Assembly (NCBI RefSeq): GCF_002355375.1
Contig: NZ_AP017312.1
Span: 1,381,001-1,445,000, forward strand
Source: Aneurinibacillus soli
GTDB taxonomy: Bacteria > Bacillota > Bacilli > Aneurinibacillales > Aneurinibacillaceae
Length of the DNA: 64,000 bases
Direction of reading: 5' to 3'
Part shown: piece after piece, positions 2,925 through 57,450 of the stretch
How the letters are laid out: each line of letters starts with the position of its first letter
Numbering within the stretch: position 1 is the first letter of the stretch
Program-made: the position numbers and the translations under genes
Notes under the pieces: model-generated
The model's input: the letters and a program-made list of their open reading frames with translations, nothing else
What the model was told of the DNA's origin: nothing
Database searches by the model: none

Positions 2925-3476
2925 GTGGGCTTTCTTTTATTTCTTCTGGTGCTTGGGGCCGGGTATATTGGATGGGCCTATGAAAAAATGACAGAAGCGG
3001 CAAGTCGTCATGCAGAGCCTGGGATTCCGTATATGATTGTGCTGGGCGCTGCAGTGCATGGAGAGACAATGTCCTGGACGCTGCAAAACCGGATGGAAAC
3101 CGCGCTTGCCTACCTGCGTGCCAATCCGCAGACGAAAGCGATCGTATCCGGCGGGCAGGGAAGAGGCGAAGACGTCACGGAAGCGAGTGTCATGCAGAAG
3201 TTTTTGCTTGCGAATGGCATTGCCTCAGAACGGGTTCTGCTAGAAGATAAGTCAACTTCCACAGCGGAAAATATTCGCTTCTCGCATAAGTTTTTGACAG
3301 GAAATCGTGTGGTGCTTGTGACGAATGATTTTCATGCGTACCGGGCGTTATGGCTGGCAGAGCGGGAAGGGATGCAGGCGGATATATTAATTGCACCAAC
3401 GCCGCCGATTGTGCGTACGCAAATGTGGCTGCGTGAATATGTAGCACTAGGTAAATCACTCTTATTTGATCGTTAA
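2925..3476 (+). CDS. DUF218 (SanA/ElyC/YdcF-like) membrane-anchored protein, likely frameshifted start
   Basis: DUF218-fold protein: IVLGAAVHGE, AIVSGGQGRGEDVTEA, the STSTAENIRFS motif, VVLVTNDFHAYRA. Family members are anchored by one N-terminal helix and are linked to envelope functions. The open frame starts at a poorly supported GTG (2925), directly at the hydrophobic helix, without the usual basic head. A well-placed ATG at 2899 with an AAGGGGA Shine-Dalgarno encodes MRSRKQKK in another frame. That frame joins this one across a run of eight A (2915-2922), giving MRSRKQKKIVGFLLFLLVLG, a normal signal anchor. The gene may therefore depend on slippage, or the A-run may be a sequencing or natural indel. 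It lies 26 nt (to the ATG) after the EAL gene. Confidence 0.8.
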   Translation: MGFLLFLLVLGAGYIGWAYEKMTEAASRHAEPGIPYMIVLGAAVHGETMSWTLQNRMETALAYLRANPQTKAIVSGGQGRGEDVTEASVMQKFLLANGIASERVLLEDKSTSTAENIRFSHKFLTGNRVVLVTNDFHAYRALWLAEREGMQADILIAPTPPIVRTQMWLREYVALGKSLLFDR

Positions 3477-3515
3477 AAAACGCTGTAGAGCCGGGGGGCT
3501 ATACAGCGTTTTTTT
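3475..3515. terminator. Bidirectional intrinsic terminator
   Basis: AAAAAACGCTGTA pairs with TACAGCGTTTTTTT around a GC-rich loop. It sits between the convergent DUF218 gene and the YcdB-like gene and has a U-run in both directions. Confidence 0.85.
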
Positions 3516-3520
3516 CATGT

Positions 3521-5224
3521 TTAGTAATTGTCCGATTCGAAGGGAACCGTCGTATAGGTACCGGTCCGGGCATCCACATAGGAATCGCCTGGAATCGGTC
3601 CTGTAATGCGGTATACAAGTACAGGAGACGGGGCTCGCTGCCCGAAATAATCAGGCCACATATATTCTAACATAAGCTTTGTGTTCTGAGAAAACGTGCG
3701 GGCTACATCAGCGCGAGATGCGAGAGAAGATGCAGGCGGCAGGCTAGGAGCCGGGCGCTCGGGTGATAAAGAAAAGCTGGTGATTTCGCCTGCTGTATTT
3801 ACGGTAACAAAGCTAGAGCGGTCACGTATCGGAATTCCGTCTTTCTGCTCAGTAAAGCGGAACTCATACTCTCCCATCTGGTTTTCTTGTACGAAAGTCT
3901 GGATTTTTGTTTTGTCTGCCCAGAATGGGAGAGTCTCCTTTTCACTGGAATGAAAATAATAGACTTTCATGGAATCAGCAGTAGTGGACACATAAGTTTG
4001 GATAAATTGAGCCGCTTTCTCGAACGCTTCTTCCTTTGTGACCATCTGATCTTCCTGACCTGTTTTCGTTACATCTACATGTAGAATTTGTTTAGTTACT
4101 TTATCGATCATAACATTAGCAGCGGCATTCGTATCATCGTTCCACCACGTATAAGCTACTGCCGTATTGACATATTGAGGATGAACGATCTTCTGCTCTT
4201 GCTCATCCACCTTCCAGCCGCTTACATCTACTCCGCATACGTTGAGGAGAACATGGGCTGCTTCTTCCTGAGAGGAAGCGTGCAGTTTTTGTTCCGCCGG
4301 TGCAAGAGATATCTGTTTCCATGGTTCAAACCGATTTTCCGATTCGTTCTGTACGTCACCTGTTACAAGGTCAACCGCTTTGCCGGTAAAAGCGTTCACT
4401 GCAACCGGGAGATTCATATCATAGCGAAGCACGGGTTGAATCGTTTTTATCCCATTTTTTCCTTGCGTATAGGAAGGCTGCTGTTCCACATAGGAAAGGG
4501 ATACACGTTCCGGCGTGAACAGATGCTTTTTCAACGTATCCGTTTTGAGTGCATCCTTTGGATCAGGCAACACAGCTTGCGAAAGGGATGGCGGATTGTA
4601 TTCAAAGCGTACAACATGCCCGGTAGCATCGACATCCATACGCGGTCCGACGCCGCCCGTAGACGTTGGAATTCCGTTAATGAGTAGCGGGAATTCGACA
4701 GTTCGGTGTGCCCATGTCGATTTAGTCCCATCCGGGTATTGAATAGACGAGGAGCCTCGGCCGTTTGAGACAGGAGTTCCGAATTGGGACAGTTGTTTCG
4801 AGCCGAACCAATTAAATAGAAACTTCTGTGCTTGTTCTTTGGCGAAGGAAGCGGAAGGTTCTAAAGACGAGCTTCGATCATGAAATTGGAAAGAAAAGCT
4901 TCGTAGTTCGCCTGTCTTACTACGGATATCGATATAGGCACTCGATAAGGGCGTTGGATCCTCTCCTTCGAGCATACGAATCGTTGTAATGCCGGTCTGG
5001 TCAGATGTAGAGCAGTTTTTAAGCTGTAGCTTTTTTAATTTTGGTTCCATTGTAAATAGCCGATCCAGTGTTTTCTGGACGGCAGGTGTAAGCTGACTTT
5101 TACTTGCAGATTGTATGGTTAAAGGCATACTCCCTGTGGCAGCTGCCTCGGCCGGAATGGCAGAGAGAGTTGTCCCGAGGCCGGTAAGCAGCAGAGCTGC
5201 TGCCAGGCAGGTGTTCCGTTTCAT
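3521..5224 (-). CDS. Secreted YcdB/YcdC-domain (DUF4901) protein
   Basis: A 567-residue exported protein. The N-terminus is a classic Sec signal peptide (basic MKRN, hydrophobic core, cleavage after PAEA at about residue 27). The rest resembles the YcdB/YcdC repeat family: two similar halves of about 250 residues with PepSY-like segments (KEEAFEKAAQFIQTYVS; DVDATGHVVRFEYNPPSL). Such proteins occur in many spore formers, usually without known activity; they may be protease-propeptide-like. No catalytic motif was seen. The ATG is preceded by AAGGGGGAAAGG. It is monocistronic and convergent with the DUF218 gene. Confidence 0.7.
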   Translation of the reverse strand: MKRNTCLAAALLLTGLGTTLSAIPAEAAATGSMPLTIQSASKSQLTPAVQKTLDRLFTMEPKLKKLQLKNCSTSDQTGITTIRMLEGEDPTPLSSAYIDIRSKTGELRSFSFQFHDRSSSLEPSASFAKEQAQKFLFNWFGSKQLSQFGTPVSNGRGSSSIQYPDGTKSTWAHRTVEFPLLINGIPTSTGGVGPRMDVDATGHVVRFEYNPPSLSQAVLPDPKDALKTDTLKKHLFTPERVSLSYVEQQPSYTQGKNGIKTIQPVLRYDMNLPVAVNAFTGKAVDLVTGDVQNESENRFEPWKQISLAPAEQKLHASSQEEAAHVLLNVCGVDVSGWKVDEQEQKIVHPQYVNTAVAYTWWNDDTNAAANVMIDKVTKQILHVDVTKTGQEDQMVTKEEAFEKAAQFIQTYVSTTADSMKVYYFHSSEKETLPFWADKTKIQTFVQENQMGEYEFRFTEQKDGIPIRDRSSFVTVNTAGEITSFSLSPERPAPSLPPASSLASRADVARTFSQNTKLMLEYMWPDYFGQRAPSPVLVYRITGPIPGDSYVDARTGTYTTVPFESDNY

Positions 5225-14028: not shown

Positions 14029-14068
14029 AAAAGCGGGTGGAATCCTGAGATTCTCACCCGCTTCTTTT
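14029..14068 (-). terminator. Terminator of the cold-shock gene
   Basis: On the minus strand, AAGCGGGTG pairs with CACCCGCTT, extended by GAATC/GATTC pairs, ending in TTTTT. It lies just past the csp stop. Confidence 0.75.
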
Positions 14069-14092
14069 ATAATCTGCTGTTACAGATATAAA

Positions 14093-14293
14093 TTACAGTT
14101 TTACAACGTTAGCAGCTTGCGGTCCACGGTTGCCATCAACGATTTCGAATTGAACGCTTTGGCCTTCTTCGAGGGATTTGAATCCGTCGCCTTGGATAGC
14201 AGAGAAGTGAACGAATACATCGTTGCCGCCTTCAACTTCGATAAATCCAAAACCTTTTTCAGCATTAAACCATTTAACTGTACCTGTATTCAT
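14093..14293 (-). CDS. Cold-shock protein (CspA/CspB family)
   Basis: 66-residue OB-fold RNA/ssDNA-binding protein: [20 protein letters not shown] carries RNP1 (KGFGFI), DVFVHFSAI carries RNP2, and the end is [10 protein letters not shown]. The ATG at 14293 was chosen for its GGAGG eight nt upstream; a longer in-frame start adds residues unlike the family. These proteins act as RNA chaperones and some are transcription antiterminators. A large hairpin with a U-tract lies in the leader at 14357-14416 and may control expression. Confidence 0.95.
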
Positions 14294-14356
14294 GTAAAAA
14301 ACCTCCAAAATGATAACTAGTAGTATGTAGTTTTTTATTCACCGAGGCAAATAAAA

Positions 14357-14555: not shown

Positions 14556-15806
14556 ATGAAGAAAGAAGCAAAATATATTGCAGGTATCTCGCTGGGAATT
14601 ATGGGGGCGGGATTTGCCGCAACGCTCCCGTTCCATGATCGGCTTGTGGCCGGAATTATAAATGGGGGATTCGAAGCCGGATTAGTTGGGGGACTCGCAG
14701 ACTGGTTTGCTGTAACAGCACTGTTCCGCCATCCAATGGGACTGCCGATTCCACACACTGCCCTTTTGCCGCGCAACCGTAAGCGGATTACGGATGCGCT
14801 TGTTCATACCCTGGAGAATGACTGGCTCACAAAAGAAAGCATTGAGGCCAAAATTCGTGAAGTTCATATTACGGACAAGCTGCTTGATTTGCTGGAAAGT
14901 GAGATGAAAGGTTCAGCGTTCCGGGAAGCCGTGCAAACGGTAGTGGTTCGGGTGATTCACTCTGTGGATACGGCTGTATTTGTGCCGGTACTTGCACAGA
15001 TGGGGCGGGATTACATCCGTAGCATCGATGCGAAGAAGCTGCTGGATCGCCTGATTGAAGAAGCAGTCACAGGGGAGTATGACAGTAAGCTGTTTGATTT
15101 TGCTGTAGGTCGGGCGTCGGACTGGGCGGTGCGCACGGAAACAAAGCATAAGCTTGGCTCGATGGCACTTTCCGCGCTGAACAACCTGGAGCTTGACGGA
15201 TTTATGCAGTTCGCACTTAAATCGTTTGCCGGTATGTTAAATGAAGAGAAGCTTGGTAGTATCCTGCAGAATCTGATCGTGCGTGGCTGTGATGATTTGC
15301 GTCGCCCAGGAAACAAAAATCGGCAGGCCGTTCTTCTCTATATACGGGGCGAATTAGAGAAAGCAGGCGAGCATGAGGGACTGCTAAAAACAGTTGATCG
15401 TGCTAAGGAAGTGATTCTTACCCACATTGATCTGGAAGAAAGAATTGCGGATATGCTTGCCCGGCTTAAAGAGAAGGCTCTTGTGTATGTACAGACAGAT
15501 GCATTTCTTGATGGACAGGCGTTACCACTATTATCAGGTTTGCTTGCGGATGTAAAGAAAGATCGTGAGCTGCTAGACCGTCTGGAGGAGTGGACAAAGC
15601 GTCAGTTGGTTACGCTTATTGGTCGCAACCATTCGAAGATTGGCCTGCTCGTGCGCGAAAATCTTGATAAGCTTGATAATGAGACGCTGATTGAGATGAT
15701 GGAAGATAAAATAGGGAAAGATATTCAATGGATTCGTGTGAACGGTGCCGTATGCGGTTTTTTGATTGGCCTTGTGCTGGCTGGTGTCCGCGCACTGGCA
15801 TCTTGA
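14556..15806 (+). CDS. DUF445 family membrane protein
   Basis: 416 residues. The N-terminal glycine-rich hydrophobic segment (IAGISLGIMGAGFAATLPF, LVAGIINGGFEAGLVGGLAD) and the signature WFAVTALFRHPMGLPIPHTA define DUF445, followed by RNRKRITDAL and long amphipathic helices. A C-terminal hydrophobic helix (VCGFLIGLVLAGVRAL) closes it. The function of the family is unknown; membrane association is expected. RBS GGAAGAGGATGGAG. A terminator follows, but the kinase gene just downstream may still be partly co-expressed. Confidence 0.85.
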   Translation: MKKEAKYIAGISLGIMGAGFAATLPFHDRLVAGIINGGFEAGLVGGLADWFAVTALFRHPMGLPIPHTALLPRNRKRITDALVHTLENDWLTKESIEAKIREVHITDKLLDLLESEMKGSAFREAVQTVVVRVIHSVDTAVFVPVLAQMGRDYIRSIDAKKLLDRLIEEAVTGEYDSKLFDFAVGRASDWAVRTETKHKLGSMALSALNNLELDGFMQFALKSFAGMLNEEKLGSILQNLIVRGCDDLRRPGNKNRQAVLLYIRGELEKAGEHEGLLKTVDRAKEVILTHIDLEERIADMLARLKEKALVYVQTDAFLDGQALPLLSGLLADVKKDRELLDRLEEWTKRQLVTLIGRNHSKIGLLVRENLDKLDNETLIEMMEDKIGKDIQWIRVNGAVCGFLIGLVLAGVRALAS

Positions 15807-46203: not shown

Positions 46204-46482
46204 AGTTTGTTTGATGAGGTTGATGTCGGCAAAGTTTGGTGGCGGGAAGCGGAGAAGAGAGAAGTTCGTCACTTGATTATGCGCTGCAAGGGAGCATGAC
46301 TGGCCGCTCCAGGAGGCAGGCAGACGTACCCGCAAAGGGGGCCAATGATGGTTTGCTTCGTTGCTTGCGGGCAAAAGCTCGTCTGCCTACCTCCTTCCGC
46401 TGGGTGGGCGCATAAAAGCGTTCCGTACTTTCTCTCTTCTCCGCTCCCGGCACACTTTGCTGCTTAAACCTTTAAACAAACT
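46204..46482. repeat. Long imperfect palindromic element, copy A
   Basis: A 279-nt dyad fills most of the 46195-46734 gap. Nested stems: AGTTTGTTT (46204) with AAACAAACT (46474); GCAAAGT (46229) with ACTTTGC (46454); GCGGAGAAGAGAG (46249) with CTCTCTTCTCCGC (46431); TTATGCGC (46277) with GCGCATAA (46408); AGGAGGCAGGCAGACG (46311) with CGTCTGCCTACCTCCT (46380); CCCGCAA (46329) with TTGCGGG (46365). Loop motifs TGCAAGG, GGCCGCT and CCTTCCGCTGGGTGG recur in copy B (57206-57450). It could be a structured RNA or a palindromic repeat. A terminator follows at 46521. Confidence 0.7.
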
Positions 46483-46520: not shown

Positions 46521-46566
46521 GATGTCTCGAAAGTCATGTAAGTGACGGGCGAGGCGTCTTTTTTAT
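46521..46566 (+). terminator. Intrinsic terminator after palindromic copy A
   Basis: GATGTCTCG (46521-46529) with CGAGGCGTC (46550-46558), inner GTCA/TGAC, then TTTTTTATTT. Confidence 0.7.
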
Positions 46567-46633
46567 TTAGGGGTAGAGGGAGCATTCTTTTATTCTATAA
46601 TACAACATGGGAAGGTTGTGCATTTTTTGCACG

Positions 46634-46699
46634 TTGACAATGATTATCATGTTCGTTATCATTGTCGTCAGTTGAATAATATTGATTATCAATATTATT
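46634..46699 (+). promoter_or_regulatory. Sigma-A promoter overlapped by two Fur-box-like dyads
   Basis: TTGACA (46634-46639), 17 nt, TATCAT (46657-46662). The promoter carries GACAATGAT...ATCATTGTC (46636-46666). A perfect 25-bp palindrome, AATAATATTGAT-T-ATCAATATTATT, follows at 46675-46699. Both resemble the GATAATGATAATCATTATC Fur box. Confidence 0.7.
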
Positions 46700-46734
46700 T
46701 TTTACTTAACAAGTACTATATAAGGTGGGGTATC

Positions 46735-47253
46735 ATGGGGAATATTTTAGAGAACAGGACGATTGAAGAAAATTTTTTTGAAATTGCACAAGATTTTCAA
46801 AGTAAATTAGACATCATTCAATCTTCCCATAAAATAGAAATCAACATTCTTAAAGAAAACGTTGAACATTTAAATCAACATCTTATTCAAATCCAAGAGC
46901 TGCTAAAAAAAGATAAAAATAAAAAAATGAATATATCAATTAATTGGTATAAATTTTTTAGAACTTCACATCTTTATATCGGGTTAAGCACTTCTATTTT
47001 AATGATAATCGTTTGTATTGCAGGTCTTATCTTTAGACACCCAACTTTATTTGGAATTAGCACAACAATCTCAAGTTTAAATTCGGGGATGTTTATTATT
47101 GGGAATTATAAAATAGACTTTACTTTCTTAGTGGATATAATGGCTATCACTTTACTATATTTAATAGGTAGTGGCATCGGAATGTGGTATTATCCTAAAA
47201 TGTTGAAAAAACGAAAAGAAAAAATTAAAAAAGAGATGAAAAAGGTAGCGTAG
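46735..47253 (+). CDS. PepSY-TM-like small membrane protein, predicted Fur-regulated
   Basis: 172 residues from the ATG at 46735, which follows AAGGTGGGG. An N-terminal coiled coil (about 15-60) precedes a PepSY-associated transmembrane-like module: WYKFFRTSHLYIGLSTSILM (His79) with TM1 at 80-100, an outer loop of about 33 residues, TM2 at 134-153 (DIMAITLLYLIGSGIGMWYY), and a Lys-rich tail. Larger PepSY-TM proteins accompany siderophore or ferric reduction systems. The Fur-like dyads in its promoter support an iron-related role. The gene is strikingly AT-rich compared with its neighbours, which suggests acquisition. Confidence 0.65.
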   Translation: MGNILENRTIEENFFEIAQDFQSKLDIIQSSHKIEINILKENVEHLNQHLIQIQELLKKDKNKKMNISINWYKFFRTSHLYIGLSTSILMIIVCIAGLIFRHPTLFGISTTISSLNSGMFIIGNYKIDFTFLVDIMAITLLYLIGSGIGMWYYPKMLKKRKEKIKKEMKKVA

Positions 47254-47337
47254 TTATTATCAACTCAATTTTCGTAACATAAATCAGGTAAGTAAACTTT
47301 GGTGTAGATAGGTAAAGTTGAAATCCATTGCTGGAAT

Positions 47338-47370
47338 AAAAAAGCCTCCCGCTTATGGGTGGCTTTTTTT
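47338..47370 (+). terminator. Intrinsic terminator
   Basis: AAAAAAGCCTCCC / GGGTGGCTTTTTTT. Confidence 0.8.
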
Positions 47371-47481
47371 ATGTTTCCTACATCGCCCATGTCAAGCAAC
47401 TTTTAAAGACAGCGTTTCTCTTCCGATGCCCCATATGGTAAGCTAATGAAGAACGTTCCAGATTGAGGAGAGAAGCAACGT

Positions 47482-57169: not shown

Positions 57170-57204
57170 AGAGACTCCGGGAATCCGGGGTCTTTTCTTT
57201 TTTT
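57170..57204 (+). terminator. Intrinsic terminator after the SASP gene
   Basis: GACTCCGG / CCGGGGTC hairpin, then TTTTCTTTTTTT. Confidence 0.75.
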
Positions 57205-57205
57205 G

Positions 57206-57450
57206 AAATCGGCATCGCGTGGTGGTGGGAGTAGAGAAGAGAGAAGCCGTTCGCTTGGTACGCTTTGCAAGGATGTGTAGACGGGCCGCTTCAGGAGCCC
57301 GGCGAACTCGCCCGCAAAAGAGGACCCGCGATGTTATTTCACGGAAGGATTGCGGGCAAAGGCTCGTTCGCCGCTCTCCTTCCGCTGGGTGGAAAGCGTA
57401 CAGGCGCTCTCTTGCTTCTCTCTTCTCTCCTCCCAACAAAGCTGGGATTT
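57206..57450. repeat. Long imperfect palindromic element, copy B
   Basis: This 245-nt dyad fills most of the 57155-57608 gap. Stems: AAATC (57206) with GATTT (57446); GAGAAGAGAGAAG (57234) with CTTCTCTCTTCTC (57415); GTACGCTTT (57258) with AAAGCGTAC (57393); AGGAG...GGCGAACG-type arm (57293) with CGTTCGCC...CTCCT (57365); GCCCGCAA (57310) with TTGCGGGC (57350). TGCAAGG, GGCCGCT and CTCCTTCCGCTGGGTGG are shared with copy A, while the helix bases differ by paired changes. No coding sequence was seen. Downstream, 57513-57605 has a 30-codon ORF with weak support. Confidence 0.7.

Follow-up and report, generated by a model that had tools for sequence, protein, structure and literature searches.

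REPINs and BIMEs (bacterial interspersed mosaic elements) are doublets of the repetitive extragenic palindromic (REP) sequence which, in the parts of the reports consulted, are described as being mobilized by RAYTs (REP-associated tyrosine transposases) (PMC3116915, PMC3733652). A second group of described repeats, bcr1–bcr18 of the Bacillus cereus group, consists of intergenic, hairpin-forming sequences of 100–400 bp with up to 130 copies (bcr1) and mobile features; the consulted portions of the sources confine them to the B. cereus group and associate them with a TTTAT motif (PMC6542083, PMC2267715).

The repeat considered here was encountered in a 64,000-nucleotide stretch of the Aneurinibacillus soli chromosome (NZ_AP017312.1, positions 1,381,001–1,445,000; "the window"), in which a reading made from the sequence alone had proposed a covarying palindromic element in two copies, A (46204–46482) and B (57206–57450), coordinates that the sequence bears out. 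The repeat family is real and large, has a conserved fold, and is apparently undescribed. On balance it is probably a high-copy, non-autonomous, REPIN-like mobile repeat of Bacilli with unusually long, loop-specific arms; this reading is based on copy number, pairing, nearly fixed loops, covariation, differences in presence and absence between genomes, homogeneity within lineages, and the excess of terminators on the outer side of the arms, and the comparisons make mobility likely.

A large family of hairpin arms in inverted pairs

The window's own genome (G000) is a single contig of 4,116,770 bp, in which a BLAST search with copy A as the query gave 57 matching pieces. Cores from 53 BLAST pieces were taken for a first alignment (A1), 51 being kept and 2 left out, and RNAalifold predicted 26 pairs from it, 15 of which have at least one sequence with both sides changed. 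The covariance model R1 matched all 150 of the candidates scored in G000, so that the total is at least 150, and 92 of 150 in a congener, G006, together with 3 to 10 matches in each of G002, G003, G007, and G009; it matches 6 of the 11 genomes of the window's family and none of the other five. In the congeners G001, G004, and G005, R1 found no match, and a reverse-strand model, R2, found 2, 0, and 1, respectively. The loci that were fetched from G000 contain 155 distinct arms scoring 94 bits or higher, and 3 more in later stretches bring the number to at least 158; excluded from the 155 were 8 of 76 and 12 of 97 covariance-model matches, all below 94 bits and weak or partial. The idea of an element with two copies therefore holds for the window, where R1 detects A and B only, but not for the genome, with its 158 or more arms, mostly in inverted pairs. 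An arm is an imperfect hairpin of about 225–280 bp, and the arms occupy about 0.9% of the chromosome (158 arms of about 225 bp). The differences in arm length within A1 are not multiples of three, so that the sequence does not appear to be coding, in agreement with the earlier reading; open frames within arms are probably spurious.

Among 58 opposite-strand neighbors within 1,700 nt of each other in G000, 51 lie 105–212 nt apart, and all 51 of these have the order + then −; the order − then + occurs in two cases, with gaps of 598 and 1,456 nt. There are two main arm types, and a type I arm is joined to a type II arm in 42 of the 53 neighbor pairs separated by less than 230 nt. Twenty-one composites form a young class whose spacer and arms are conserved to about the same extent; its consensus has about 740 bp of conserved sequence, which takes in the spacer and a terminator-like hairpin at each end. 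By eye, terminator-like hairpins that are inverted relatives of each other stand at both ends of most of these composites, and in several single copies of the class one end hairpin is missing, cut, or different. Several older composites carry a terminator-like palindrome inside the spacer (L010, L012, L013, L017, L038).

In the window, copy A lies on the + strand, with complementary ends AGTTTGTTT and AAACAAACT and an R1 core at 46261–46432 (150.1 bits); its conserved core on the − strand (CCCAGCGGA ... GCCCGCAA ... TTTGCGGG ... GGAGCGG) is matched by R2 at 46275–46408 (107.3 bits). Copy B, a type I arm on the + strand, has an R1 core at 57243–57418 (178.7 bits) and a conserved core on the − strand at 57256–57393 (R2, 130.8 bits). 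The four loop motifs that the two copies were said to share are present in both in the same order, and the first of two stem pairs said to differ by matched changes is confirmed (TTATGCGC/GCGCATAA in A, GTACGCTTT/AAAGCGTAC in B); the second had been quoted slightly out of place for copy B (GCGAACG/CGTTCGC), where the sequence is GGCGAAC/GTTCGCC. An intrinsic terminator (AGACTCC...GGGGTCT with a T-run; 57172–57204, + strand) lies immediately outside copy B, for which no partner arm was detected inside the window at E ≤ 1. Behind copy A there is a terminator hairpin with a T-run (46521–46566, + strand), of which a scan reported the inner part alone (46547–46559). The orthologue of copy A in G006 is 90% identical; behind it come a terminator of the same kind and, after that, an inverted partner arm. 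Thus the terminator that had been assigned to copy A exists but, as its G006 counterpart sits between two inverted arms, it does not belong to copy A alone. Judged from this orthologue, copy A is a case of the older composites with a terminator in the spacer, and its partner arm is gone from the window, the place of that arm (L151 15312–15580 in G006) being taken by a stretch with an AT-rich open reading frame (ORF) at 46567–47391. The ORF itself (46618–47253) has weak, below cut-off similarity to DUF2207_C/PepSY_TM, and the palindromic AATGATTATCAT...GTTATCATT just upstream of it resembles a Fur box.

In an orthologous composite (L107 and L141), decay is complementary, the left arm being intact and the right weak in G000 and the reverse in G006. 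At three loci an IS110-family element interrupts the apical loop of the − arm (L030, at about 3420–5055; L120, with an ORF at 3623–4879; and L101, as a split arm), and in all three the two pieces of the arm start 1,651 nt apart. The transposase of L030 (418 amino acids) has DEDD_Tnp_IS110 and Transposase_20 domains; its ORF was seen in L030 and L120 and is presumed in L101. IS110 relatives target REP repeats by means of a bridge RNA, and these three insertions would accordingly link the repeat to RNA-guided transposition.

Conserved fold and the strand that folds

In 181 arms, 155 from G000 and 26 from other genomes (those used of 42 matches), the 58 pairs of the fold contain 9,433 paired cells as against 974 mismatches (383 A·C, 284 G·T, and 307 other), pairs being defined in this count by Watson-Crick matches alone. 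A second alignment (A2) holds 31 arms on the reverse strand from five genomes and three genera, with copy A added by hand; 12 of 42 locus/strand entries that had no regular-expression match, L165, and the window matches at 15247 and 36704, which have no model support, were left out. Its cells are 90.7% paired, and 76 are changed on both sides, where shuffles give 19.4 and slid controls no more than 27; the regular expression requires parts of the loops, so that the invariance of the loops in A2 is partly selected. The third alignment (A3) holds 45 arms from 16 genomes, taken from 34 chosen sources that include 3 of 20 short G036 pieces and 3 of 20 short G240 pieces as well as longer loci of both. 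Both sides are changed in 154 of its cells (41.2 in shuffles), and its covariation score of 0.627 compares with 0.136 or less when slid, values obtained on an alignment fitted to R2, which favors the structure of R2. Of the 15 R2 pairs, 13 are real; the helix joining columns 9–10 with 200–201 is misregistered (0% paired in A3). Within lineages, a doubly changed type present in at least two arms was found at 4 of 57 pairs in G036 and at 22 of 83 in G240 and G204. The double-sided changes in A2 and A3 uphold the earlier claim of selection on secondary structure. On the reverse strand, there is hardly any variation in CCCAGCGGA, in GCAA and the TTTTGC opposite it, in GGAGCGGACAG, or in CTTCCCTGC.

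Nineteen arm pairs at orthologous places in G000 and G006 show differences at 161 of 1,836 positions in stems and at 344 of 1,870 unpaired positions; 36 stem pairs are changed on both sides against 7.1 under independence. Five arm pairs, with 12 to 29 stem changes and possibly not true orthologues, account for 31 of the 36 double changes, and the remaining 14 arm pairs have 5 double changes against about 1.9 expected. In five composites compared between species, the arms are 0.71–0.95 and the spacers 0.78–0.85 identical, and two of these composites have a spacer that is better conserved than the left arm. Selection on the arms after insertion is therefore weakly supported, and most of the covariation may have arisen in copies that amplify.

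The fold would also suit a class of structured noncoding RNA, in which transcription of each arm would run outward from the center of the pair (reverse strand) as far as the flanking terminator, and the internal loop would bind a protein or ligand. Strong covariation and nearly fixed loops across Bacilli lineages are consistent with such a class, as are several indications of strand. For 49 core pairs read on the + strand in the 181 arms, there are 358 A·C as against 127 G·T mismatches, and 37 pairs versus 5 favor A·C; unpaired columns are without a comparable bias (0.0439 versus 0.0490). Because A·C on the + strand corresponds to a G-U wobble on the reverse strand, the reverse strand is favored as the folded one in G000, opposite to the strand of the sequence-only reading. 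Left and right arms (106:29 and 107:31, respectively) show the bias to the same degree, as do both types; in the 26 arms from other genomes it has the same direction but is weaker (54:32). The bias thus follows each arm rather than the composite, and neither one transcript nor one DNA strand spanning the pair would produce it; for G000 and its close relatives, it points to the strand running outward from the pair as the one that folds. Folding z-scores of copies A and B are also better on this strand (−10.2 and −6.0 for 46222–46465 and 57212–57446, respectively, as compared with −6.6 and −3.1 for the same stretches on the + strand); over the longer stretches 46204–46482 and 57206–57450, the + strand gives −9.3 and −3.5, and in each test 0 of 200 shuffles fold as well. 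One weak promoter-like site on the reverse strand (46671–46643, 9 of 12 matches) points at copy A, 2 sites being found in all against 0.7 expected.

However, the strand bias is absent from 22 G036 arms (27 GU:32 AC) and from 26 G240/G204 arms (62 GU:48 AC), and a wobble count based on self-alignment shows none in 36 arms of other families (10:9) or in 60 of the 155 G000 arms (32:31), which for G000 contradicts the column-based count. Our opinion, which is unproven, is that the self-alignment count picks up fixed loop mismatches. With the bias missing from two other lineages and from this count, either RNA or DNA may be the working form. In addition, the single composite scanned, spacer included, has no sigma-70-like promoter, and copy number among congeners ranges from none found to more than 150. 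A noncoding RNA class therefore appears rather unlikely, and for the specific suggestion that copy A is an independent noncoding RNA there is little positive evidence, given the promoter scan of that composite and a terminator which, in G006, is common to the partner arm.

Spread in Bacilli, genomic sites, and possible mobilization

At E ≤ 1e-5, with 13 candidates scored in each genome, R2 had matches in 36 of 250 Bacilli genomes, of which 27 belong to families other than that of the window; these E-values are rough, and genomes with one weak match may be chance. In a phylum-wide draw that included several Bacilli, 1 of 199 genomes, the window's own, matched at E ≤ 1e-6. When 150 candidates were scored in each of ten selected carriers, the matches numbered 8 to 52 per genome (G036, 52; G212, 28; G240, 27; G186, 26; G136, 14; G204, G050, and G107, 13 each; G035, 9; G203, 8). 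The search of related genomes with a covariance model, which the earlier reading had recommended, thus found many homologues within and beyond the window's family, and distant relatives with different stems and similar loop motifs are present in other families of Bacilli, often in many copies. Median core identity is 0.76–0.94 within a genome and 0.61–0.71 between genomes, the value for shuffled sequence being 0.70; cores that are alike within genomes and no more alike between them than shuffles are what repeated amplification within lineages would leave. In G186, three R2 arms with the same direction form a tandem array at steps of 521–522 bp (C1 3468635, 3469157, and 3469678). Pattern scans of genome contigs gave 0 stretches with a first pattern and 16 with a second, 13 of these being in Aneurinibacillus tyrosinisolvens; the other 3 (a Rhizobiales isolate, Rhizobium herbae, and Sphingobium cupriresistens) lack the rest of the arm and were therefore judged by eye to be chance matches. 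The pattern scan of viral contigs gave 0, and plasmid searches with four arms as queries found no match.

An ORF heuristic places 20 of 55 arm pairs between convergent genes, as compared with 44 of 366 gene pairs in the background; for divergent genes the numbers are 5 of 55 and 66 of 366. Of 154 arms put to a strict hairpin and T-run test, 49 have a terminator in the outward flank and 5 have one in the inward flank, as compared with 5 of 249 random places; the distance between terminator and arm is tight in the 49. In another family, locus L191 has the order gene, terminator, T-run, arm, spacer, and inverted arm. When three G006 elements were compared with G000, a composite was found at 741 and 770 kb where G000 has a terminator alone, whereas at 958 kb G000 has an arm too. 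Conversely, L122 and L010 have arms in G000 that are lacking in G006, with no clear target duplication, and at L010 the arm-less site of G006 has a terminator. The enrichment between convergent genes, the terminators outside the arms or in the spacer, and the terminators kept at arm-less sites (L010 in G006; 741 and 770 kb in G000) would also be expected if the composites were modules of transcription end, retained between convergent genes for their role as bidirectional terminators, insulators, or stabilizers of mRNA 3′ ends. Such a role seems improbable, because a simple terminator is enough at the arm-less sites, and the internal-loop motifs and lineage-specific homogeneity would be left unexplained.

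For a mobile REPIN-like repeat, we propose that a trans-acting enzyme would recognize the folded arm, as RNA or single-stranded DNA, and would then copy or move it. Recognition would be through the conserved internal loop, with CCCAGCGGA opposite GGAGCGGACAG on the reverse strand and GCAA/TTTTGC above. The stems would drift by paired changes in master copies, which would give each lineage its own stems, and amplification would proceed independently from lineage to lineage, often with copies directly behind intrinsic terminators, where insertion would leave neighboring genes intact. A stronger version of this proposal is speculative, and we hold it with considerable doubt: that the arms are a Bacilli-wide class of mobile structured RNA lacking an Rfam 15 model, long hairpins whose internal loop has an AGCGGA motif on each side and which act as cis elements for an enzyme handling RNA or single-stranded DNA, land behind transcription terminators, amplify to more than 150 copies, and would be a bacterial counterpart of short interspersed nuclear elements (SINEs).

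Several observations weigh against mobilization of this kind. The convergent pair is typical of this genus, and elsewhere mostly single arms, a few pairs, and a tandem series were seen. The strict terminator test was failed by 105 of 154 arms, and the terminators of the young class may be part of the element itself. The state of G000 at 770 kb can be derived by deletion between short direct repeats inside two palindromic terminators, so that this site does not prove insertion, and the difference at L117 is better explained as loss, since the terminator and the initial bases of the element are still present there in G006. No target-site duplication was seen at the sites read, where the boundaries are blurred by terminators, and no transposase was linked to the repeat. 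Y1_Tnp domains, which would mark a RAYT or IS200 enzyme, number 2 in G000 and 1 in G006, and all lie beside large ORFs that by eye read like TnpB, as in ordinary IS605-type elements. Group II reverse transcriptase (TIGR04416) was found at E ≤ 1e-20 in neither G000 nor G006, the two richest genomes.

The last result bears on a derivation of the repeat from a group II (class C) intron or other retroelement that homes to terminators. Class C introns sit just behind intrinsic terminators, and the 49 arms that passed the terminator test are placed with comparable tightness; nevertheless, the enzyme was not found at this threshold in G000 or G006 even though 107 of 250 Bacilli have one, and no Rfam group II match was found. 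This origin is very improbable, and a classical group II enzyme for the repeat is largely refuted. A Uma2-family nuclease gene lies between two inverted arms at L009 (3056–4709); it was rejected as the mobilizing enzyme, as one such gene in G000 and none in G006 do not amount to a systematic association.

Relation to described repeats

The window has no Rfam 15 match to the element at the gathering score, nor have the 19 loci of other genomes that were compared from a set of 20, and at E ≤ 1 copy A has one chance match (E 0.98), which agrees with the earlier failure to recognize a named family. Elsewhere in the window, 14030–14356 (− strand) matches the cspA thermoregulator family at barely above the gathering score (78.2 versus 78). 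As far as titles and the beginnings of abstracts show, literature searches turned up no description of the repeat family. The repeat recurs in several families of Bacilli, yet has neither an Rfam match nor a literature description that we could find, and its structure is kept from lineage to lineage in spite of a sequence that for the most part is not conserved. If the mobilizing enzyme were found, it would represent a new recognition system for long folded nucleic acids.

The repeat shares conserved structure with covariation with the families of Rfam and differs from them in having no match there. Like miniature inverted-repeat transposable elements (MITEs), it is noncoding, has inverted-repeat ends, and is present in many copies, but neither a target-site duplication nor a parent insertion sequence was found. 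A match to a known transposon end or MITE family had been named beforehand as evidence against an RNA element; the preferred reading as a mobile repeat comes close to this, yet no known MITE family was matched. From the bcr repeats, as the consulted parts of their descriptions present them, it is set apart by its occurrence in several families of Bacilli, its inverted pairs, and its own loop motifs, a distinction drawn from those descriptions. The window's GTDB family also holds A. tyrosinisolvens and is thus presumably not part of the B. cereus group.

The closest likeness is to REPINs and BIMEs which, in the sections of the literature consulted, are high-copy, extragenic, palindromic, inverted doublets with a spacer, often located between convergent or co-directional genes. 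Here too most arms are in doublets that lie between ORFs, with a single orientation in all 51 close pairs. At the foot of the hairpin, where REP sequences have a GTAG or CGTC tag, GTGTAGTGG and GTGTGGTGG both occur among the arms listed (by eye), and GTAG is not fixed. The arms are 225–280 bp, in contrast to a REP unit given in those sections as 20–40 bp, they have conserved internal loops within a long stem, and no RAYT was found in G000 or G006. Thus, although membership fails on the length of the unit and on the RAYT, in its arrangement the repeat works like a REPIN.
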